Positions 15,648 to 23,308 of a stretch of 36,456 bases of DNA are shown one piece after another. This stretch comes from a bacterium (GTDB lineage: Bacteria > 4484-113 > JAGGVC01). A program made the translations under genes and the position numbers. The stretch is from positions 1-36,456 of the forward strand of contig JABRWB010000038.1 of the NCBI GenBank assembly GCA_039961635.1, written 5' to 3'. Numbering within the stretch: position 1 is the stretch's first letter; each line of letters starts with the position of its first letter. The notes beneath the pieces are model-generated. The model was not told where the DNA came from, searched no databases, and worked only from the letters and a program-made list of their open reading frames with translations.

Positions 15648-18600
15648 CTACCCGTTGCCCTGCTGGCTCTGCAGGTTGGCGATGGCCTGCTGCAGGAATT
15701 GCGACTGCCCCTGGAATTCGGTCAGCGCGCGCTCCATCGCGGCGAATTGGCGGCGCAGCCTGAGTTCGTACTGCACAAGCGCGGCCTCGCCGCGCTCAAT
15801 CGCGCCCGACAGGTTTTCAATCTGCCGGTCGAAGCTCCCCCCCGTGCGCGTGCGCTCGAACAATATCCCGCCGACGCGCGTCGAAAGGTCGATGAAATTG
15901 CGCGTCCGCGTCGACACGCCGCCGGATACCAGCGGATCGCCTCCCAGGAACGTTCCCGAAGCGAGTCCGAGCGCGTCCAGAATTCCCTGCGGGCCTTCCG
16001 AAAAATCGTTGATTTGAATTTGCGCGCGGCTGCCGTCGGTTTTGGAGCTTTCAAGAATCAGGTTGTAGCCGAAACCGAATTTGGAGGTAATTCCCGAAAG
16101 CCCCGCCGCAGCAAGCGCGGAGCCGATGTAGCCGCCCACCTGATTCATCGTGCTGTAGCCCGCGGGTATCGTGACCGACGCGGTGCTCACGCCGTCGCCG
16201 ATCGTGAATTGCAGCGGATTTGAAAGCGAAACTCCGGCCACAAGATTTTTCGTGCCGGAAACTTCGGCCTTGCTGGACAGCGAGTTCGAGAATAACGTGA
16301 AAAGATCGTCCGAATTATTTTCAATCGCGTCCTGGAGAAGCGAATTCGCCTGTACCAGCGAGCGGATCGTTTCCTCGTCCGTCGTGTTCGCAAGCAGCCT
16401 GCCGCGGCTGTCCACCGCGCTTTCCGGCCCCGTGCCGACAAGCCCGGTGGTCAATCCGATTTCCGAAAGCGAGCGGAATTTGCCGGAGTTCGCGACCGGC
16501 CCCATTAACAGCTCGCGCAGCCTGCGCGCCATAAGCGCAACCGTGCCGTCGCCGGCTATCGCCTGCTGCTTCAACAGCCTCTGGCGCTCGTTGTTGTACA
16601 GGTCTATGTCCGCGAGCGACATCTGATCCATCTTTTCGCGCGTGAGCGGCTCTATTCGCCTGCGTTCGTCTTCGGTCAACGGTTTCGGATTGATGAACTC
16701 CATCGTCTTGTTCCACTCGACGATGAATTCCACGATCGCATCCTCCGCCGCGGTTGTATCGGCCTCGATCGTAATCGTCACAGGTGAAGATGTTGTTCCG
16801 AGCAGATTGAACGAAACCCCGTCCACTATGTCGGAGGGATTGTTCGTGGGGCGCGTGTACGAAATTCCGTTTATCGAGAAGGCCGCCGATTCGCGCTTGG
16901 TTCCCACCTCGGTCTGGACGCCCGGAGAATTAGTAAGCCTCATAGCCGAGAGAAAATTCGAAGTGTCGTTCGTGCTCCCCAGGACGATATAGTCCGCCGT
17001 CGTGTTTTCGTCCAGATTCTGGACGAGCGTGAGCGCATCGGTGGCGGAAGAATAAGATGCCGTCACGCCCGCGCCGCTGCGGTTTATCTTGTTAATAATG
17101 GTTGAAAGTGAATCGGTCGAACTGTCCACGAAAATGTTGACGCCGTTTATCGTGAAACTGCCGGTTGTGGGAATCGTATCGAATCCCGCGGTTGCGAGCG
17201 GCTCCGAAAGCGAGATCGCGCCCTTGTTGCGCCCGGCCATGAAGGCTGCCCCGGTTGACGCGGTAAGCCGGGCGGCCGCGAGGAAGTTCGATGTATCCCC
17301 CCCCGCTCCGACCGTTATCGCCTGCGGGCCGGAGTTTGCGTTTCTCAATATGAACCTGTCGCTCGCGCCGTCGTATTCCATCACGACGCCCGCGCCAGAC
17401 GAGTTGACCTGGCCTATCACGTCCTGAACCGTGGTCGCCGCAAGACCGCCTATCGTGAATTGCACTCCGTTTATCGTGAAAGTGCCGGCCGTGACCGGTG
17501 TCGCGAAATTCGCGGAAGAAAGCGTCTCGGTCACGTCCATCGGAGGAACCGTCGCGGCGGATGGCGAAGAAACGTTGCGCGCGCCGACCACGCGCCCGGC
17601 CAGCGCCGGCGCGCTTGAAAGCTCGGCGGACTCGGTCGTACGGATTATCGCGAGGCCGTCGCCAAAGGTGTGCACTCCCCCCCCGTTTATGTTCACTCCC
17701 GCCACCAGCGATGAAATCGCGCTTCCTTCGCTGCCGTAGGACGCCTTGCGAAGGGATGCCGCCGCGACGTCGCCCGCAAAACGGTCCACCGCTGTGTAGT
17801 CCGTCGCGGTTGTGTTTGAAGCAAAACTGTTTACGTTGTCCGGCGCGCTGGTGTCCTGGGTCGTAACGCCGCCGAAGAACACGTCCACGACTCCCCCCGC
17901 GGCGGACGCCGCGACGATGTCGCGTCCGCCTTCGTTCGCTTGGATTACCAGCTTGCCCGTTCCATCCAAGTACGCGGTCACGTCCGGAACTTGAAAATTG
18001 ATAAGATCGATCAGGCCTTGTATCGTCGTTTTGCCTGTAAGGCCGGTGACGGATTTGGCGATCTGACTTCCGCCGGAATCAGGATCTATCGAAAGCGAAA
18101 ACGCGGTTACGCCGAGATTTTCGAGAGTATCAACCGCCGACATTGCGGACGTGGAAATCAGCCGCCCCGGAAGACCTTGGGTAAGCGACACTTCATGCAA
18201 TCCGGTGGATTCCAATGTGAACGCGCCGGTCGCGCCGTAGCCTTGTGAGCTTCCGTCGGTATAGGATACTCCGGCGCCAAAACTAAGCGTTGAGCCGGAA
18301 AAGTCTGCATCGACAAAAGTCAGATTCGAGGATGGATCAAAAGACAGCGTACCGGAACCGGAAATCTGGCGAACGATAATCTCGCCGGAATACCCTATGG
18401 ACACCTGCGCTGTTCCGTTGAACGCTCCGACGAGAAACTGCGCGAACTTTTGAAGCGTATCGGTGTCGTCGCCCGCGAACGTGAAGGTTTCGCTCACCGC
18501 GTAGCCGTCGCCGTCCGTGCCGGTAACCTGAATTTGGTCGCCAGCCGTGATCGAGTTTGCCTGTGAAAGCGCATTGAAATGCGTTGTCGGCAGCGCCCTC

Positions 18601-19040
18601 ACTTCGTCGAAAGCGCCCGTTACGGACAGCCCCGTCACCCCCGCGGTGTTGCCCGCGCCAAGATACGCGCTTTTGGCGGTGATCGCGCCGTTCAGCCCGC
18701 TTGTCGCCGAGCCCGCTCGCGCAAGCCGCGATATCTCGACCTGATAGCTTCCCCGCTGCGCCCCTGCGGAAGCCGTCGCCGTCACCTTCGCCGGGTCAGA
18801 GGAATTCGCGGTGCGGGAAAGAAACGTGGATTCGAGCTTGAGCTTGCCGAGCGCCGTCGTAAGGCTTGCCAGCCGCTGGTTAACCTCCAGCGATACCGAG
18901 CGGCGGAAAAACAATTCCTCGCGCCTTGCGATCAGATTGTCAACCGGCCTGCGCTGGACCGAAACGAGCTGGTCGATTATCTGATCCCACTGGATCCCGC
19001 TGTTCAAACCCGAAAAGAAAATGCCTGATGTGCTGCTCAT
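15648..19040 (-). CDS. fliD: Flagellar filament cap protein FliD (large form)
   Basis: An 1130-aa FliD, more than twice the common 450-550 aa. The N-terminal domain (about residues 8-110) starts with FFSGLNSGIQWDQIIDQLVSVQRRP. Residues about 515-585 and 625-700 are two copies of a module starting TFTINGVQFTI / SFTINGVNIFV and ending DTSNFL, i.e. flagellin-hook IN motifs; a third start, FSINGISY, lies near 717. The C-terminal FliD_C domain runs from about 760 and ends in a coiled coil (LRRQFAAMERALTEFQGQSQFLQQAIANL). FliD caps the filament and directs flagellin folding. ATG 19040 has AAGGA upstream. No fliS follows. Confidence 0.95.
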   Translation of the reverse strand: MSSTSGIFFSGLNSGIQWDQIIDQLVSVQRRPVDNLIARREELFFRRSVSLEVNQRLASLTTALGKLKLESTFLSRTANSSDPAKVTATASAGAQRGSYQVEISRLARAGSATSGLNGAITAKSAYLGAGNTAGVTGLSVTGAFDEVRALPTTHFNALSQANSITAGDQIQVTGTDGDGYAVSETFTFAGDDTDTLQKFAQFLVGAFNGTAQVSIGYSGEIIVRQISGSGTLSFDPSSNLTFVDADFSGSTLSFGAGVSYTDGSSQGYGATGAFTLESTGLHEVSLTQGLPGRLISTSAMSAVDTLENLGVTAFSLSIDPDSGGSQIAKSVTGLTGKTTIQGLIDLINFQVPDVTAYLDGTGKLVIQANEGGRDIVAASAAGGVVDVFFGGVTTQDTSAPDNVNSFASNTTATDYTAVDRFAGDVAAASLRKASYGSEGSAISSLVAGVNINGGGVHTFGDGLAIIRTTESAELSSAPALAGRVVGARNVSSPSAATVPPMDVTETLSSANFATPVTAGTFTINGVQFTIGGLAATTVQDVIGQVNSSGAGVVMEYDGASDRFILRNANSGPQAITVGAGGDTSNFLAAARLTASTGAAFMAGRNKGAISLSEPLATAGFDTIPTTGSFTINGVNIFVDSSTDSLSTIINKINRSGAGVTASYSSATDALTLVQNLDENTTADYIVLGSTNDTSNFLSAMRLTNSPGVQTEVGTKRESAAFSINGISYTRPTNNPSDIVDGVSFNLLGTTSSPVTITIEADTTAAEDAIVEFIVEWNKTMEFINPKPLTEDERRRIEPLTREKMDQMSLADIDLYNNERQRLLKQQAIAGDGTVALMARRLRELLMGPVANSGKFRSLSEIGLTTGLVGTGPESAVDSRGRLLANTTDEETIRSLVQANSLLQDAIENNSDDLFTLFSNSLSSKAEVSGTKNLVAGVSLSNPLQFTIGDGVSTASVTIPAGYSTMNQVGGYIGSALAAAGLSGITSKFGFGYNLILESSKTDGSRAQIQINDFSEGPQGILDALGLASGTFLGGDPLVSGGVSTRTRNFIDLSTRVGGILFERTRTGGSFDRQIENLSGAIERGEAALVQYELRLRRQFAAMERALTEFQGQSQFLQQAIANLQSQQGNG

Positions 19041-19066
19041 CCGCGCGCGTCCTTTCCCCTGTCAAG

Positions 19067-19074
19067 TTATCGGC
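19067..19074 (-). promoter_or_regulatory. Possible sigma-28 (FliA) -10 box before fliD
   Basis: GCCGATAA on the - strand is the exact FliA -10 octamer and lies between the flaG terminator and fliD, 27 bases before the ATG. The four bases 15 nt upstream are TTCA rather than TAAA, so the -35 is poor. Confidence 0.4.
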
Positions 19075-19091
19075 AGCTCGGCCGCAGCCTG

Positions 19092-19130
19092 AAAAAAACG
19101 GGGCCCGCAACCTGGGTCGCGGGCCCGTTT
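19092..19130 (-). terminator. Rho-independent terminator after flaG
   Basis: On the - strand a GC-rich stem (CGGGCCCGC ... GCGGGCCCCG) with about a ten-base loop is followed by seven Ts. It lies 28 bases after the flaG stop and before fliD, so it separates flaG from fliD transcription. Confidence 0.9.
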
Positions 19131-19157
19131 CATTCCGTTTAGGTGGAAAACTGCCGC

Positions 19158-19601
19158 TTATACGGAAATGTCGAGAAGCTTCCCCACCTGCTGCTCAATA
19201 TACTCGACGATCTCTCCTATGTCCCACGGCGGGATCTCCCGAATGACCTGGCCGGTCTCGGTGTTTCGTACCACTACCCTGAACCAGTTGGTCCGCTCAT
19301 CAAAACTGATGTCGGTTTTTATCGCGAACAGGTTTGTGGACATATTGAGCTTTCGCAAGAACTTGCTCATCTCCTCCGCGGAGATGGGCTTGACGATCTC
19401 ATCAAAACTCTTGAGGTTCGGCTTCCTGATCGGCTCGGCGTTCGGGGTATGTGATCCCAACGGCGGTGCCGGCGCGGGAGGTGTGGAGCTTGTCGCCGGG
19501 GTTGGCGAGACAGGCTGGCGGGGAAGCGGCGCGGGCGGCGGGGCGGTTGTGACCGCCGGCGCCGGAACGCGGCCGACTCCTATACCAGTTATCTCAGCCA
19601 T
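19158..19601 (-). CDS. flaG: FlaG family flagellar protein
   Basis: A 147-aa protein. The first 60 residues are a proline/alanine/threonine-rich linker; the C-terminal half is the FlaG domain (AEEMSKFLRKLNMSTNLFAI, SFDERTNWFRVVVRNTETGQVIREIPPWD, then a terminal amphipathic helix). FlaG is a small accessory protein linked to filament length, usually encoded beside flagellin and fliD, as here. The proline-rich extension is longer than in most members. GGAGGT lies upstream of ATG 19601. The gene is 70 bases after the flagellin stop on the same strand; the gap has a weak AGCCG/CGGCT inverted repeat but no clear terminator, so read-through from flagellin is likely. Confidence 0.93.
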   Translation of the reverse strand: MAEITGIGVGRVPAPAVTTAPPPAPLPRQPVSPTPATSSTPPAPAPPLGSHTPNAEPIRKPNLKSFDEIVKPISAEEMSKFLRKLNMSTNLFAIKTDISFDERTNWFRVVVRNTETGQVIREIPPWDIGEIVEYIEQQVGKLLDISV

Positions 19602-19671
19602 CCTTTAGCTACCTCCATTACCATTGGCCGGACCAGCCGATCCAAAGCGGATTACGGCTGACCAGGAGAAC

Positions 19672-22600
19672 TTATCTCAGGAGCTGGAGAACAGCCTGCG
19701 GAAGCTGATTCGCCTGGGCCAAAGCGGCTATGCCGGCCTGCAACAGGATTTGATTCCTGGTGCTGGTCAGCGTTTCCGCCGCCACGTCCACGTCGCGGAT
19801 GCGGCTCTCGGACGAGTTCAGGTTCTCGACAGCGACATCGAGGTTCCTGATCGTGCTTTCCAGACGGTTCTGGATAGCACCGAGACGGCCGCGCTCCGAG
19901 TTCACGCGCGAAATGGCCTGGTCGACGATCGTGATCGATTCCTGAGCAAGATCCTCGGTCACTATCAGCAAACCTTTCACGCCCAGCGCCTCGCTGCCGA
20001 GATCGCCGATGAAAGTGCTGATCAGTTGGCCCTGGTTCGCGCCGATCTGCAGCACGAAATCGCGGGGTGCGACGTGCAGGAACAGCTGCTTCGCGGTGCC
20101 GCTGATTGACAGCAACGGACGCTCGTTCGCCAGGAAGTACGGGCTGTTGCTCGAAGTGGCGTTTGTGTTGGCCGTCGGAGGATCCGGATCCAGTTTCACG
20201 CCGCCCGAAGTGTTGAAGAACAGGTCGAGGCCGGGAAGCAGGCCGCTGATCTTGCCCGAGTTGACCTTCTGCGACGCGACCAATGCGCCGGTCTCTACGT
20301 TGTACGCCGAAACGGAGTAAACGGGTGACGAGGCCGCCTGGATTTCGATCAGCGAAAGCGCGTTGAGCAGATCCTCGTCGCCCCCGAATACGAGCTCGAG
20401 GCCCGGAATCGGGGTGGTTATCGAGAGCGTGCCCTTTGCAAGGCCGATCGTGTTCACGTGAACCAGATCGGGCGGCTGGAAGAAGTCGATTCCAGCCTCC
20501 GCGTTGAGGTCCATCGTGGATGCCGGATTGGCGATCGCCAAGCTGATCTTGCCCGCGAGGTCTTCGAGTGTGTCGTTGGAGCTGATGTTGACCGTCGCGG
20601 CGCCTTGTCCCTTGATGTAAATCGTGAACTGGACGTTCGACCTTCCCTGGAATACGCCGAAATCGATGAAGCGGTTAAGGGAAGCGAGCGTAGTCTGCTG
20701 ATCCGCCGTAAGCACGTTGTTCGTGCTCACGTTGAACGTCGCGGTCTCGCCCGCGGTGAGGAACCGGTTGAACGCGATTTCCACTCCCTGCAGCTCCGCG
20801 ATGCTCGATCCGCCGTAGTTGACGGTAGCGCCGATTGAAAACACATTGTTTCCGAACGCGTCGGAAATCCTGCTGCTCGACGTCTTGGCCGCGTACAGCG
20901 CGTCCTCGCGGGTGCCGCCGCCCGAGATCACGCTCGAATATATTTGGTTGCTGAAGGTGAACAGGGCGAATGTGCGGTTGGTGATCGCGGACATGTAAAT
21001 CGTTCCGTTGTAGCTTGGAGTAGAAACCTGCCGGACGAGCTGGCCTTCCTGGAATTGGTTACCATCCGAATTGTAGGCAACTCGTACGGTATCCTGGCCG
21101 CCCACCACACCCGTGCGGGTGAAGGTGAGTGTATCGATTCCTCCAACGTCGCCCGTGTAAGTTTGAACGTCCAGCTTGCCGTAGAAACCGCCGACCGTCG
21201 TGTTGCCGATGGAGTAAAGCGTGCCGCCTCCCGCGAATGACGACGTAACCGTACCGGTCCCGTCGGTCAAGCTGTAAAGCGCGGCGCTGAAGAACAGATT
21301 CGTAACGGCAATACTTCCCGATCCGGAGCCGCCGAAGCTGGCAAGGGTCACCCAGAACTCGCTGCCGGTGGCGTCGGCATCGAGGAATCCGATGGCAGTG
21401 TAGTTCGCGCCCGCGGTTGCGAAGTACGCGCCGGCCATGCTGATTTCGCCGTCAGTGGATACCGCGATCGAAACTCCGCTGTGGCCAACCGCGCTGACGA
21501 CGAGGCTCTGGAGTCCCGCCGCGACCTGGTTGAGCGTCATTGTGGTGTTGAGCGCCATCTGGACGGTCTGGCTTGCGCCGGTTGAATCGGTGAACGAGAG
21601 AACCAAAAGGTCGCCGTTTGTGAGACCGTTCGCATTGATCAGCGTGGAAATTCCCGCAGTGCCGCTTGCGCTGAACAGGGAAACGAGCGCGAAGTCGAGC
21701 GAACCCGCGGCCGCCGCGACGCTGCCCTTTGCGTCGGCATAGGCCTGAACCGCGTCGAGGCCGCTGTTGCCGTAGGAGCCGCCCGAAGGAAGCGGGAAGG
21801 TAACGCCGATCAGGTCGCGCGTGCCGATCGTATCGAAACGCACGTCGAAGGTTCCCGTCGCAGCGGTGCCTATGGTTTTGACGCCGCCTCCGGTAATCGA
21901 AAACGCAACGGTCCCTCCGAGATTCTGCAGGCGGCCTTCGATTCTGCGGAAGAACTGATTGGTGCGCCCGCCGGAAATGCTGATCAGAAATTCGCTGCCG
22001 CTGCCATCCACGTCGTTGAACGTGAGTTTCTGGGCCGCGCTCTTGACGATGTTGCCGCTGAAGCTGATGAAACCGCTCGTCACGGTTGCGGTGACCGCGC
22101 CACCCGAAGCGGTGGATGCAGCCGCCGCTACCTGCGCGGCGAAAGTTGCAAGCGTCCAACTGGTGTCGAGCGTGACGGTGGCGGTGCGGTTTGCGCCGCC
22201 CGCATCAACGAAACTGAAGGTTACGGTGTCGACTCCGTTGGTGATTTCGTACGACTGAACCAGGGTGCCGATCGTGATTCCTGCGCCGCCCGTGCCGGCG
22301 TCCACCAGATCGGTAATTGTGATTGTGGCTTGCCCGTTGGCAACCGCGAGCGCGCCCGCCGCATCGGGAGTGGGGCTTATCTGGAAAATACCGGTGTTGC
22401 CGTAGCTTTGGCCGGTGACCGGGGTGAACACCGCGTCCAGCGTGATCGTGTCGAGCGCATTGACCTTGCCGACCGCGTCGAGTTGCTGCAAGGTGGCGAA
22501 AACGTCCGACTTTTGAACTTGAAGTGAGCCTGGGTTGACGGTGTTGAGCTGGATCGTGAAGTTGCCGCCCTTGCCGACCGTCCCGATGACCGCTGCGCGA

Positions 22601-23064
22601 AGCTGCGTGGGATCGTCGGTGGAAATGAGGGCGCCAAGAGTGCCGTCCAGCAGCTTCTTGGTGTTGAACTCGGTCGACTGCGCGATGCGGTCGATTTCGT
22701 TGATGAGCTGGTCTACTTCGGCCTGGATGCCTACGCGGTCGTTCGCCGTCAGGGTGCTGTTGGCGCTTTGAACGGCCAGCTCGCGGATTCGCTGAAGGAT
22801 CGCGGAAGTTTCGTTCAGCGCTCCCTCGGCGGTCTGGATGAGCGAGATACCGTCGAGAGCGTTGGCAGAAGCGCGGTTCAATCCGCGGATCTGGGCGCGC
22901 AGGTTCTCGCTTAGGGACAACCCGGCGGCGTCGTCGGCCGCCCGGTTGATGCGAAGCCCGCTTGAGAGTCTTTCCAAGGACTTCGCGATGGCGCTGCCGG
23001 TGACCCGCAAGTTGCGGTTGGCGTTCAGCGCCACGATGTTTTGGTTGATTCGAAGAATCGACAT
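19672..23064 (-). CDS. Giant flagellin
   Basis: An 1130-aa flagellin; most are 270-550 aa. The N-terminal D0/D1 region (about residues 1-140) is textbook: LRINQNIVALNANRNL, SLERLSSGLRINRAADDAAGLSLSE, ALDGISLIQTAEGALNET and STEFNTKKLLDG. The C-terminal D1/D0 end (about 1040-1130) has AISRVNSERGRLGAIQNRLES and ILLQAGIAALAQANQLPQAVLQLL. Between them lie about 900 residues of Gly/Thr/Ser-rich beta-structure, which would form enlarged surface D2/D3-type domains. The TSS, secretion and polymerisation regions appear intact. The ATG is preceded by AAGGAGG in the loop of a perfect hairpin (separate entry). This is the only flagellin gene in the window. Confidence 0.96.
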   Translation of the reverse strand: MSILRINQNIVALNANRNLRVTGSAIAKSLERLSSGLRINRAADDAAGLSLSENLRAQIRGLNRASANALDGISLIQTAEGALNETSAILQRIRELAVQSANSTLTANDRVGIQAEVDQLINEIDRIAQSTEFNTKKLLDGTLGALISTDDPTQLRAAVIGTVGKGGNFTIQLNTVNPGSLQVQKSDVFATLQQLDAVGKVNALDTITLDAVFTPVTGQSYGNTGIFQISPTPDAAGALAVANGQATITITDLVDAGTGGAGITIGTLVQSYEITNGVDTVTFSFVDAGGANRTATVTLDTSWTLATFAAQVAAAASTASGGAVTATVTSGFISFSGNIVKSAAQKLTFNDVDGSGSEFLISISGGRTNQFFRRIEGRLQNLGGTVAFSITGGGVKTIGTAATGTFDVRFDTIGTRDLIGVTFPLPSGGSYGNSGLDAVQAYADAKGSVAAAAGSLDFALVSLFSASGTAGISTLINANGLTNGDLLVLSFTDSTGASQTVQMALNTTMTLNQVAAGLQSLVVSAVGHSGVSIAVSTDGEISMAGAYFATAGANYTAIGFLDADATGSEFWVTLASFGGSGSGSIAVTNLFFSAALYSLTDGTGTVTSSFAGGGTLYSIGNTTVGGFYGKLDVQTYTGDVGGIDTLTFTRTGVVGGQDTVRVAYNSDGNQFQEGQLVRQVSTPSYNGTIYMSAITNRTFALFTFSNQIYSSVISGGGTREDALYAAKTSSSRISDAFGNNVFSIGATVNYGGSSIAELQGVEIAFNRFLTAGETATFNVSTNNVLTADQQTTLASLNRFIDFGVFQGRSNVQFTIYIKGQGAATVNISSNDTLEDLAGKISLAIANPASTMDLNAEAGIDFFQPPDLVHVNTIGLAKGTLSITTPIPGLELVFGGDEDLLNALSLIEIQAASSPVYSVSAYNVETGALVASQKVNSGKISGLLPGLDLFFNTSGGVKLDPDPPTANTNATSSNSPYFLANERPLLSISGTAKQLFLHVAPRDFVLQIGANQGQLISTFIGDLGSEALGVKGLLIVTEDLAQESITIVDQAISRVNSERGRLGAIQNRLESTIRNLDVAVENLNSSESRIRDVDVAAETLTSTRNQILLQAGIAALAQANQLPQAVLQLLR

Positions 23065-23067
23065 CTG

Positions 23068-23087
23068 GATTATCCTCCTTGATAATC
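23068..23087 (-). promoter_or_regulatory. Hairpin presenting the flagellin ribosome-binding site in its loop (candidate CsrA site)
   Basis: On the - strand GATTATC and GATAATC pair perfectly (7 bp) around the loop AAGGAG, the Shine-Dalgarno sequence, three bases before the flagellin ATG. A GGA in a hexaloop is the preferred target of CsrA-type proteins. Confidence 0.7.
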
Positions 23088-23116
23088 AGATTCAGATTTC
23101 TCTGCCGGATGCCGCA

Positions 23117-23209
23117 TTAATGTTGGATTTTCGGCACCGGCGCGGCTTTAAATGTGCGCGTGCGAGCGCGGTCGACGTCGGGGGCTAATAGAAAGCACAG
23201 CCAGCGCAT
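23117..23209 (-). CDS. Possible 30-codon leader ORF in the flagellin 5' region
   Basis: On the - strand ATG at 23209 opens 30 codons (MRWLCFLLAPDV ... VPKIQH) ending in TAA at 23117. The ATG overlaps an 11-base perfect match to the 16S 3' end, AAGGAGGTGAT (23218-23208), so the spacing is too short for optimal initiation; the next candidate, a GTG in another frame, is about 14 bases away. It would be translated only from the distal promoter. Whether it is a real peptide or only a ribosome or regulator binding site is open. Confidence 0.3.
   Translation of the reverse strand: MRWLCFLLAPDVDRARTRTFKAAPVPKIQH
23128..23135 (-). promoter_or_regulatory. Weak sigma-28-like -10 box before flagellin
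   Basis: GCCGAAAA (- strand) differs by one base from the FliA -10. A TAAA lies upstream at 23150-23147, but with 11 instead of about 15 bases between them. A promoter here would make a 56-base leader that keeps only the ribosome-binding-site hairpin. Confidence 0.3.
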
Positions 23210-23222
23210 CACCTCCTTGTGA
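23209..23222 (-). promoter_or_regulatory. Upstream AAGGAG-loop hairpin in the flagellin leader
   Basis: On the - strand TCAC and GTGA (4 bp) enclose the loop AAGGAG, the same six-base loop as the ribosome-binding-site hairpin about 135 bases downstream. It overlaps the perfect AAGGAGGTGAT sequence. Confidence 0.55.
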
Positions 23223-23250
23223 ATCACTGACAAAAGAAAAACACTGATTT

Positions 23251-23274
23251 ACGCTCGCCCGAAAGGGCTTGCGT
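23251..23274 (-). promoter_or_regulatory. 5'-terminal stem-loop of the flagellin mRNA
   Basis: ACGC-AA-GCCC-TTTC-GGGC-GA-GCGT on the - strand forms two 4-bp helices split by an AA/GA internal loop. The predicted transcription start (about 23273) falls at its first base, so it would cap the 5' end and could stabilise the message. A pyrimidine-rich stretch follows. Confidence 0.55.
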
Positions 23275-23279
23275 TCGAG

Positions 23280-23308
23280 ATTATACCGCCGGATTTTGGA
23301 TTTGTCAA
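23280..23308 (-). promoter_or_regulatory. Perfect-consensus housekeeping promoter for flagellin
   Basis: On the - strand TTGACA (23308-23303), 17 bp, and TATAAT (23285-23280) match the sigma-70 consensus at all twelve positions. It predicts a start near 23273 and a leader of about 209 bases before the flagellin ATG. Confidence 0.85.

Follow-up and report, generated by a model that had tools for sequence, protein, structure and literature searches.

A flagellin leader with two AAGGAG-loop hairpins as the likely target of a tandem CsrA with one predicted RNA site

Results

The flagellin locus and its promoter

The window analyzed here, the whole 36,456-nucleotide stretch of DNA, encodes a very large flagellin on its minus strand, followed by the genes for FlaG and the filament cap FliD and preceded by a structured leader. 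The features that concern us are these:

23280-23308, minus strand: putative sigma-70-type promoter, TTGACA-17-TATAAT, matching 12/12 consensus positions
23200-23231, minus strand: upstream hairpin, a candidate second CsrA site and possibly the tighter one; 7 bp, a 2x2 internal loop, and TCAC-[AAGGAG]-GTGA
23068-23087, minus strand: Shine-Dalgarno (SD) hairpin, candidate repressive CsrA site; GATTATC-[AAGGAG]-GATAATC with a perfect 7-bp stem
19672-23064, minus strand: flagellin, the regulated gene, 1130 aa; Flagellin_N, E 9.1e-44, match at 22639-23049
19158-19601, minus strand: FlaG, the next gene downstream of flagellin; PF03646, E 1.8e-11
15648-19040, minus strand: FliD filament cap, 1130 aa, the next gene after flaG; PF07195 and PF02465

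FliD has exactly the same length as flagellin, 1130 residues (15648-23064), and both proteins are far above the usual size. The shared length raised the idea that 15648-19040 is a second giant flagellin, which its two FliD domains rule out. For comparison across relatives, the class to which this genome belongs was sampled with 10 genomes from four families (f1-f4), this genome (G000) being in f1; six of the 10 encode flagellin, and flagellin reading frames in the class span about 900-1140 aa.

Transcription is predicted to start near 23273, which would place both hairpins within the transcript. The sigma-70 match of the flagellin promoter falls to 10/12 in the sister genome, and in the other families the flagellin genes carry good sigma-28-type sites. 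FliA and FlgM are both encoded in this genome, so the sigma-70-type promoter cannot be put down to a loss of sigma-28. Flagellin transcription in family f1 may have left the sigma-28/FlgM checkpoint.

Two hairpins in the leader

The SD of the flagellin gene is AAGGAG, and this hexamer is itself the loop of a 7-bp stem. On the minus strand the stem strand GATTATC (23087-23081), the hexaloop (23080-23075) and the stem strand GATAATC (23074-23068) follow one another, with the flagellin ATG at 23064 just beyond. The original prediction had placed such a hairpin directly before the flagellin start, and its coordinates, stem and loop all proved exact. It had also described a repeat of the loop within TCAC-AAGGAG-GTGA some 135 bases upstream. 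This element is present at 23222-23209 on the minus strand (TCAC 23222-23219, AAGGAG 23218-23213, GTGA 23212-23209), at a GGA-to-GGA distance of 138 nt from the SD site, and it is the tip of a larger hairpin than had been described: a further 7 bp, GUCAGUG/CGCUGGC (23231-23225 with 23206-23200), stack on its 4 bp across a 2x2 internal loop.

In minimum-free-energy folds both hairpins form as drawn, singly and within the 251-nt leader, and the leader as a whole is more stable than its shuffles (z -2.23). The upstream hairpin folds at -16.3 kcal/mol (z -2.67). The folding energy of the SD hairpin is unremarkable against shuffles (z -1.34), so its significance lies in its conservation. No other AAGGAG hexaloop in the window has a stem of at least 5 bp. 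The sequence ATCAAGGAGGAT occurs a single time in the 2.78-Mb genome, and CACAAGGAGGTG has one further genomic copy, at C90:48833, near which we found no convincing gene start. A search of the leader against Rfam matched no known element. A possible leader ORF (ATG at 23208, 30 codons) was set aside, as reading by eye gave no conserved counterpart in G001 or G003 and the gap from AAGGAGG to this ATG is very short.

Conservation and covariation of the SD hairpin

Comparison of leaders among relatives shows that both the GGA hexaloop and the stem pairing are kept, with compensatory changes. An AnGGAG hexaloop on a stem of at least 5 bp precedes 12 of the 14 flagellin genes in the six flagellated genomes of the class (for the C9 flagellin of G002, an earlier ATG was used as the start in scoring) and is missing from the other two. 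In the 12 genes that have it, GGA lies about 12-15 nt upstream of the start, and the loop is closed by C-G in every case. The stems themselves vary: GATTATC/GATAATC in this genome and its sister, GGTTATC/GGTAACC in G003, and ACGTTC/GAATGT in G005 and G007. Pair counts give 90.5% of cells paired, with both sides changed in six of the seven pairs, and a covariation score of 0.747, compared with 0.223 for shuffled alignments and at most 0.224 for slid partners. As a control, we scored 39 AnGGAG SDs in loci of the class; a stem of at least 5 bp was found at 12, all of them at flagellin genes. Some of the 14 genes are paralogs and do not represent 14 independent events, but because the stems differ between families, the conclusion of conservation draws on more than paralogs.

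The upstream element is less widespread. It recurs in G001 and G003, at spacings of about 104 and 118 nt from the SD site, and it occurs as three copies before one gene of G005 and in a weak form before one gene of G002; in most f2 flagellin leaders the SD hairpin has no upstream partner. One G005 flagellin leader (L078, G005:C2:10900-13000) combines its SD hairpin with three upstream repeats, which brings its AnGGAG hexaloop hairpins to four. Pair counts lend only weak support to pairing outside CAC/GTG, and the element is not general in the class. Its core CACAnGGAGGTG is nonetheless invariant among seven upstream sites in five flagellin leaders. Of the CsrA SELEX consensus RUACARGGAUGU (PMC7652899), the core contains ACA, GGA and GU. 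The SD hairpin agrees with this consensus less well, and CsrA may therefore bind more tightly at the upstream site than at the SD site.

csrA and fliW in the genome and the class

The window contains neither of the regulators that the original prediction had invoked. Searching the genome recovered both as neighbors on contig C54, past a flgL-type gene. The fliW gene is intact (E 3.6e-35) and adjoins csrA in both f1 genomes. Across the class, the distribution of fliW coincides with that of flagellin: all six flagellated genomes have it, and searches of the four flagellin-free genomes did not detect it. Every genome with SD hairpins has both csrA and fliW. All genomes are draft assemblies, which makes the absences provisional. 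Three genomes without detected flagellin or fliW (G004, G006 and G008; L057, L058 and the L051-L052 region) keep csrA in the tandem form described below, which suggests that this protein probably has non-flagellar targets.

A tandem CsrA throughout the class

The CsrA of this genome is 135 residues long and consists of two CsrA domains fused in tandem (PF02599, 70 bits over two stretches). All nine csrA-bearing genomes of the class encode such a fusion. In a sample of 211 genomes, 71 that lie outside the class bear csrA; not one of these has two CsrA matches in one frame, and eight long or weakly matching outgroup frames that could have hidden a tandem were single when read by eye. The fusion departs from the family's usual form, a single-domain homodimer with two identical RNA sites.

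The two copies have diverged in a patterned way. The Pfam profile match of copy A starts at position 2 and stops at 37-41, whereas that of copy B extends to 51-53. The beta1 strand of copy A is kept (LV[LV]TR[RK] in the class, LVLTRR in this genome), while its beta5 Arg44 is lost in all nine tandem proteins, as read by eye. Copy B retains beta5 with Arg44 (residue 105 in this genome) and the helix. By the same reading, Arg6 in the beta1 strand of copy B is also lost in G000, G003, G004 and G006 and still looks intact in G001 and the f2 genomes.

An RNA site of CsrA combines the beta1 strand of one monomer with the beta5 strand of its partner, and an R44A substitution abolishes function (PMC7652899; PMC7829508). 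The residues of one complete site are present in the tandem chain, namely L4 and R6 of copy A beta1 and R44 of copy B beta5. Given that sites combine strands of opposite halves and that copy A has lost Arg44, we expect the chain to adopt a pseudo-dimer fold in which beta1 of copy A joins beta5 of copy B in the sole intact RNA site and the other site is dead. AlphaFold2 on one class member (L098) gave a model (pLDDT 85, pTM 0.73) in which strands and helix follow one another as expected. A Foldseek search with this model returned no match below E 0.001, the CsrA-family matches being of low significance. On its sequence, the tandem protein is a variant within the CsrA family and is predicted to work like CsrA. 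We found no earlier report of a natural tandem CsrA in the open-licence literature.

Discussion

A probable CsrA-controlled leader with a predicted single-site repressor

We propose that this leader places flagellin translation under CsrA control relieved by FliW, and that the repressor is a single-site tandem CsrA pseudo-dimer, a reading to which we assign a probability of roughly 0.78. When flagellin accumulates in the cell, it would hold FliW and leave CsrA free; free CsrA would occupy the AAGGAG hexaloop over the SD and block ribosomes. Once flagellin is exported, FliW would be released and remove CsrA, and translation would resume. Since only one site is predicted to be intact, each tandem CsrA would fill one hairpin rather than bridge two, and the upstream CAC-AAGGAG-GTG hairpin would serve as an independent second binding site. 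A one-site repressor agrees with the 138-nt spacing and with the presence of the SD hairpin alone in most f2 leaders.

The same observations bear on three other readings. The hairpins could act on their own, as RNA structures that tune ribosome access or mRNA stability; covariation of the stem speaks for selection on structure rather than for a protein, and an SD exposed in a loop could still recruit ribosomes. We consider this very improbable, as all 12 hairpins present a CsrA-type AnGGAG loop closed by C-G and confined to flagellin genes among the SDs scored, the upstream core repeats the CsrA consensus, and csrA and fliW accompany the hairpins in every genome. Another reading is a two-site repressor, in which both sites of the tandem work or tandem chains pair, with bridging of the two hairpins as seen in glgC or hag. 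The intact-looking beta1 with Arg6 in copy B of G001 and the f2 genomes would allow it, tandem chains might associate and so restore a second site, and RNA folding could bring the hairpins closer than their 138 nt. Dimer bridging has been reported over 10-63 nt (PMC7652899), a range that the leader sites exceed, and the upstream hairpin is missing from most f2 flagellin leaders. With Arg44 of copy A gone from all nine proteins and Arg6 of copy B gone from four, we regard this reading as unlikely.

The third reading keeps CsrA as the repressor and questions its release: in f1, FliW may not act on CsrA, with relief by another partner or none at all. Asn55 is conserved in all FliW-type CsrAs compared in earlier work, and at position 51, where Val or Ile occurs, Ile is an accepted substitute (PMC7829508). 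Of these FliW-binding positions, the CsrA of this genome keeps Ile51 and has Met at 55 (Ile in the sister genome). Asn55 is kept in G002, G003, G005 and G007, the four f2/f3 genomes with FliW, and is lost in three csrA-bearing genomes of the class without FliW, which the f1 proteins thus resemble. Such a distribution favors a CsrA-FliW link across the class while leaving the link in f1 less certain. On the other side, the f1 genomes keep an intact fliW next to csrA, residue 51 is acceptable, and FliW could have co-evolved with the f1 CsrA. We therefore hold a FliW-independent leader in f1 to be quite improbable, and FliW antagonism of CsrA in this family to be likely.

Control of flagellin by a single-site tandem CsrA is thus the reading we prefer. 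The original prediction had assigned this flagellin the same kind of secretion-coupled translational control as B. subtilis hag. Its CsrA/FliW core is well supported by the genes, the hexaloop and the covariation, and it withstood both of the conditions that the prediction had named as refuting it; the claim of the same kind calls for qualification, given a tandem CsrA with a single predicted RNA site, sites 138 nt apart, and the missing Asn55 in f1. The leader belongs to a known kind of system, and its repressor is a novel variant.

Implications

The textbook picture of CsrA is a two-site RNA-binding homodimer, whose bridging of two sites is thought to aid repression. If the class has lost one site while the SD hairpin remains under strong selection, it offers a natural test of the extent to which CsrA control depends on dual-site binding, and its tandem protein would supply a ready single-site CsrA for biophysics. 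In B. subtilis, flagellin, FliW and the CsrA dimer stand at 1:1:1, and one FliW is enough to inhibit a dimer (PMC6529632). We speculate that a single-chain pseudo-dimer with one C-terminal helix fixes this ratio. It is about an even bet that the class has fixed a natural single-site CsrA to govern flagellin homeostasis, with one chain, one FliW and one SD hairpin in a hard-wired 1:1:1 arrangement, and that mobile elements made such fusions independently. A literature search found no flagellar study of candidate phylum UBP7, in or near which this genome tentatively falls, and the present work likely extends FliW-CsrA control of flagellin to an uncultured bacterial phylum.

Comparison with known systems

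The closest relative of the whole arrangement is the B. subtilis Hag-FliW-CsrA module. Like that module, this genome has GGA sites in the flagellin leader, one of them over the SD and a second upstream, and encodes both csrA and fliW, which adjoin each other in family f1. The differences are that the B. subtilis CsrA is a homodimer whereas the protein here is a tandem fusion, that the hag sites lie at 51-55 and 75-82 (PMC8523840) whereas those here are 138 nt apart, and that the flagellin promoter here is of the sigma-70 type and Asn55 is absent in f1.

Tandem CsrA ORFs also occur on four viral contigs in IMG/VR (L083:3001-3402, L085:3001-3399, L084:3001-3303 and L086:3001-3306). As in the class protein, the first copy has an intact beta1 and a degenerate or missing beta5, and the second copy has an intact beta5. 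The viral proteins share 27-33% identity with the query in the best segment, have different linkers (almost none in L084 and L086), and show no flagellar context. In L084 and L086 the tandem ORF comes after a gene that was judged by eye to encode a LexA/CI-like repressor. When the tandem proteins were searched against phage and plasmid records, there was either no match or, among the matches listed, only proteins the size of a single CsrA. The viral and class tandems are probably of separate origin, and the four viral fusions suggest that the design has arisen more than once.

Among characterized proteins, RsmN/RsmF of Pseudomonas aeruginosa is a rearranged member of the CsrA family and was the best CsrA-type Foldseek match, at low significance; its short chains form a rearranged homodimer (PMC3791407) rather than a two-domain fusion. 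A counterpart in layout is Re-CsrA (PDB 5Z38), an engineered single-chain CsrA with a native-dimer-like fold and one ligand site, to which the first copy contributes beta1 and the second beta4/beta5 (PMC5864733). It has the same order as the class tandem: a first copy without working beta5 and helix, a linker, and a full second copy. Re-CsrA was made from E. coli CsrA for crystallography, whereas the class tandem, known from sequence, is natural, diverged and class-wide.
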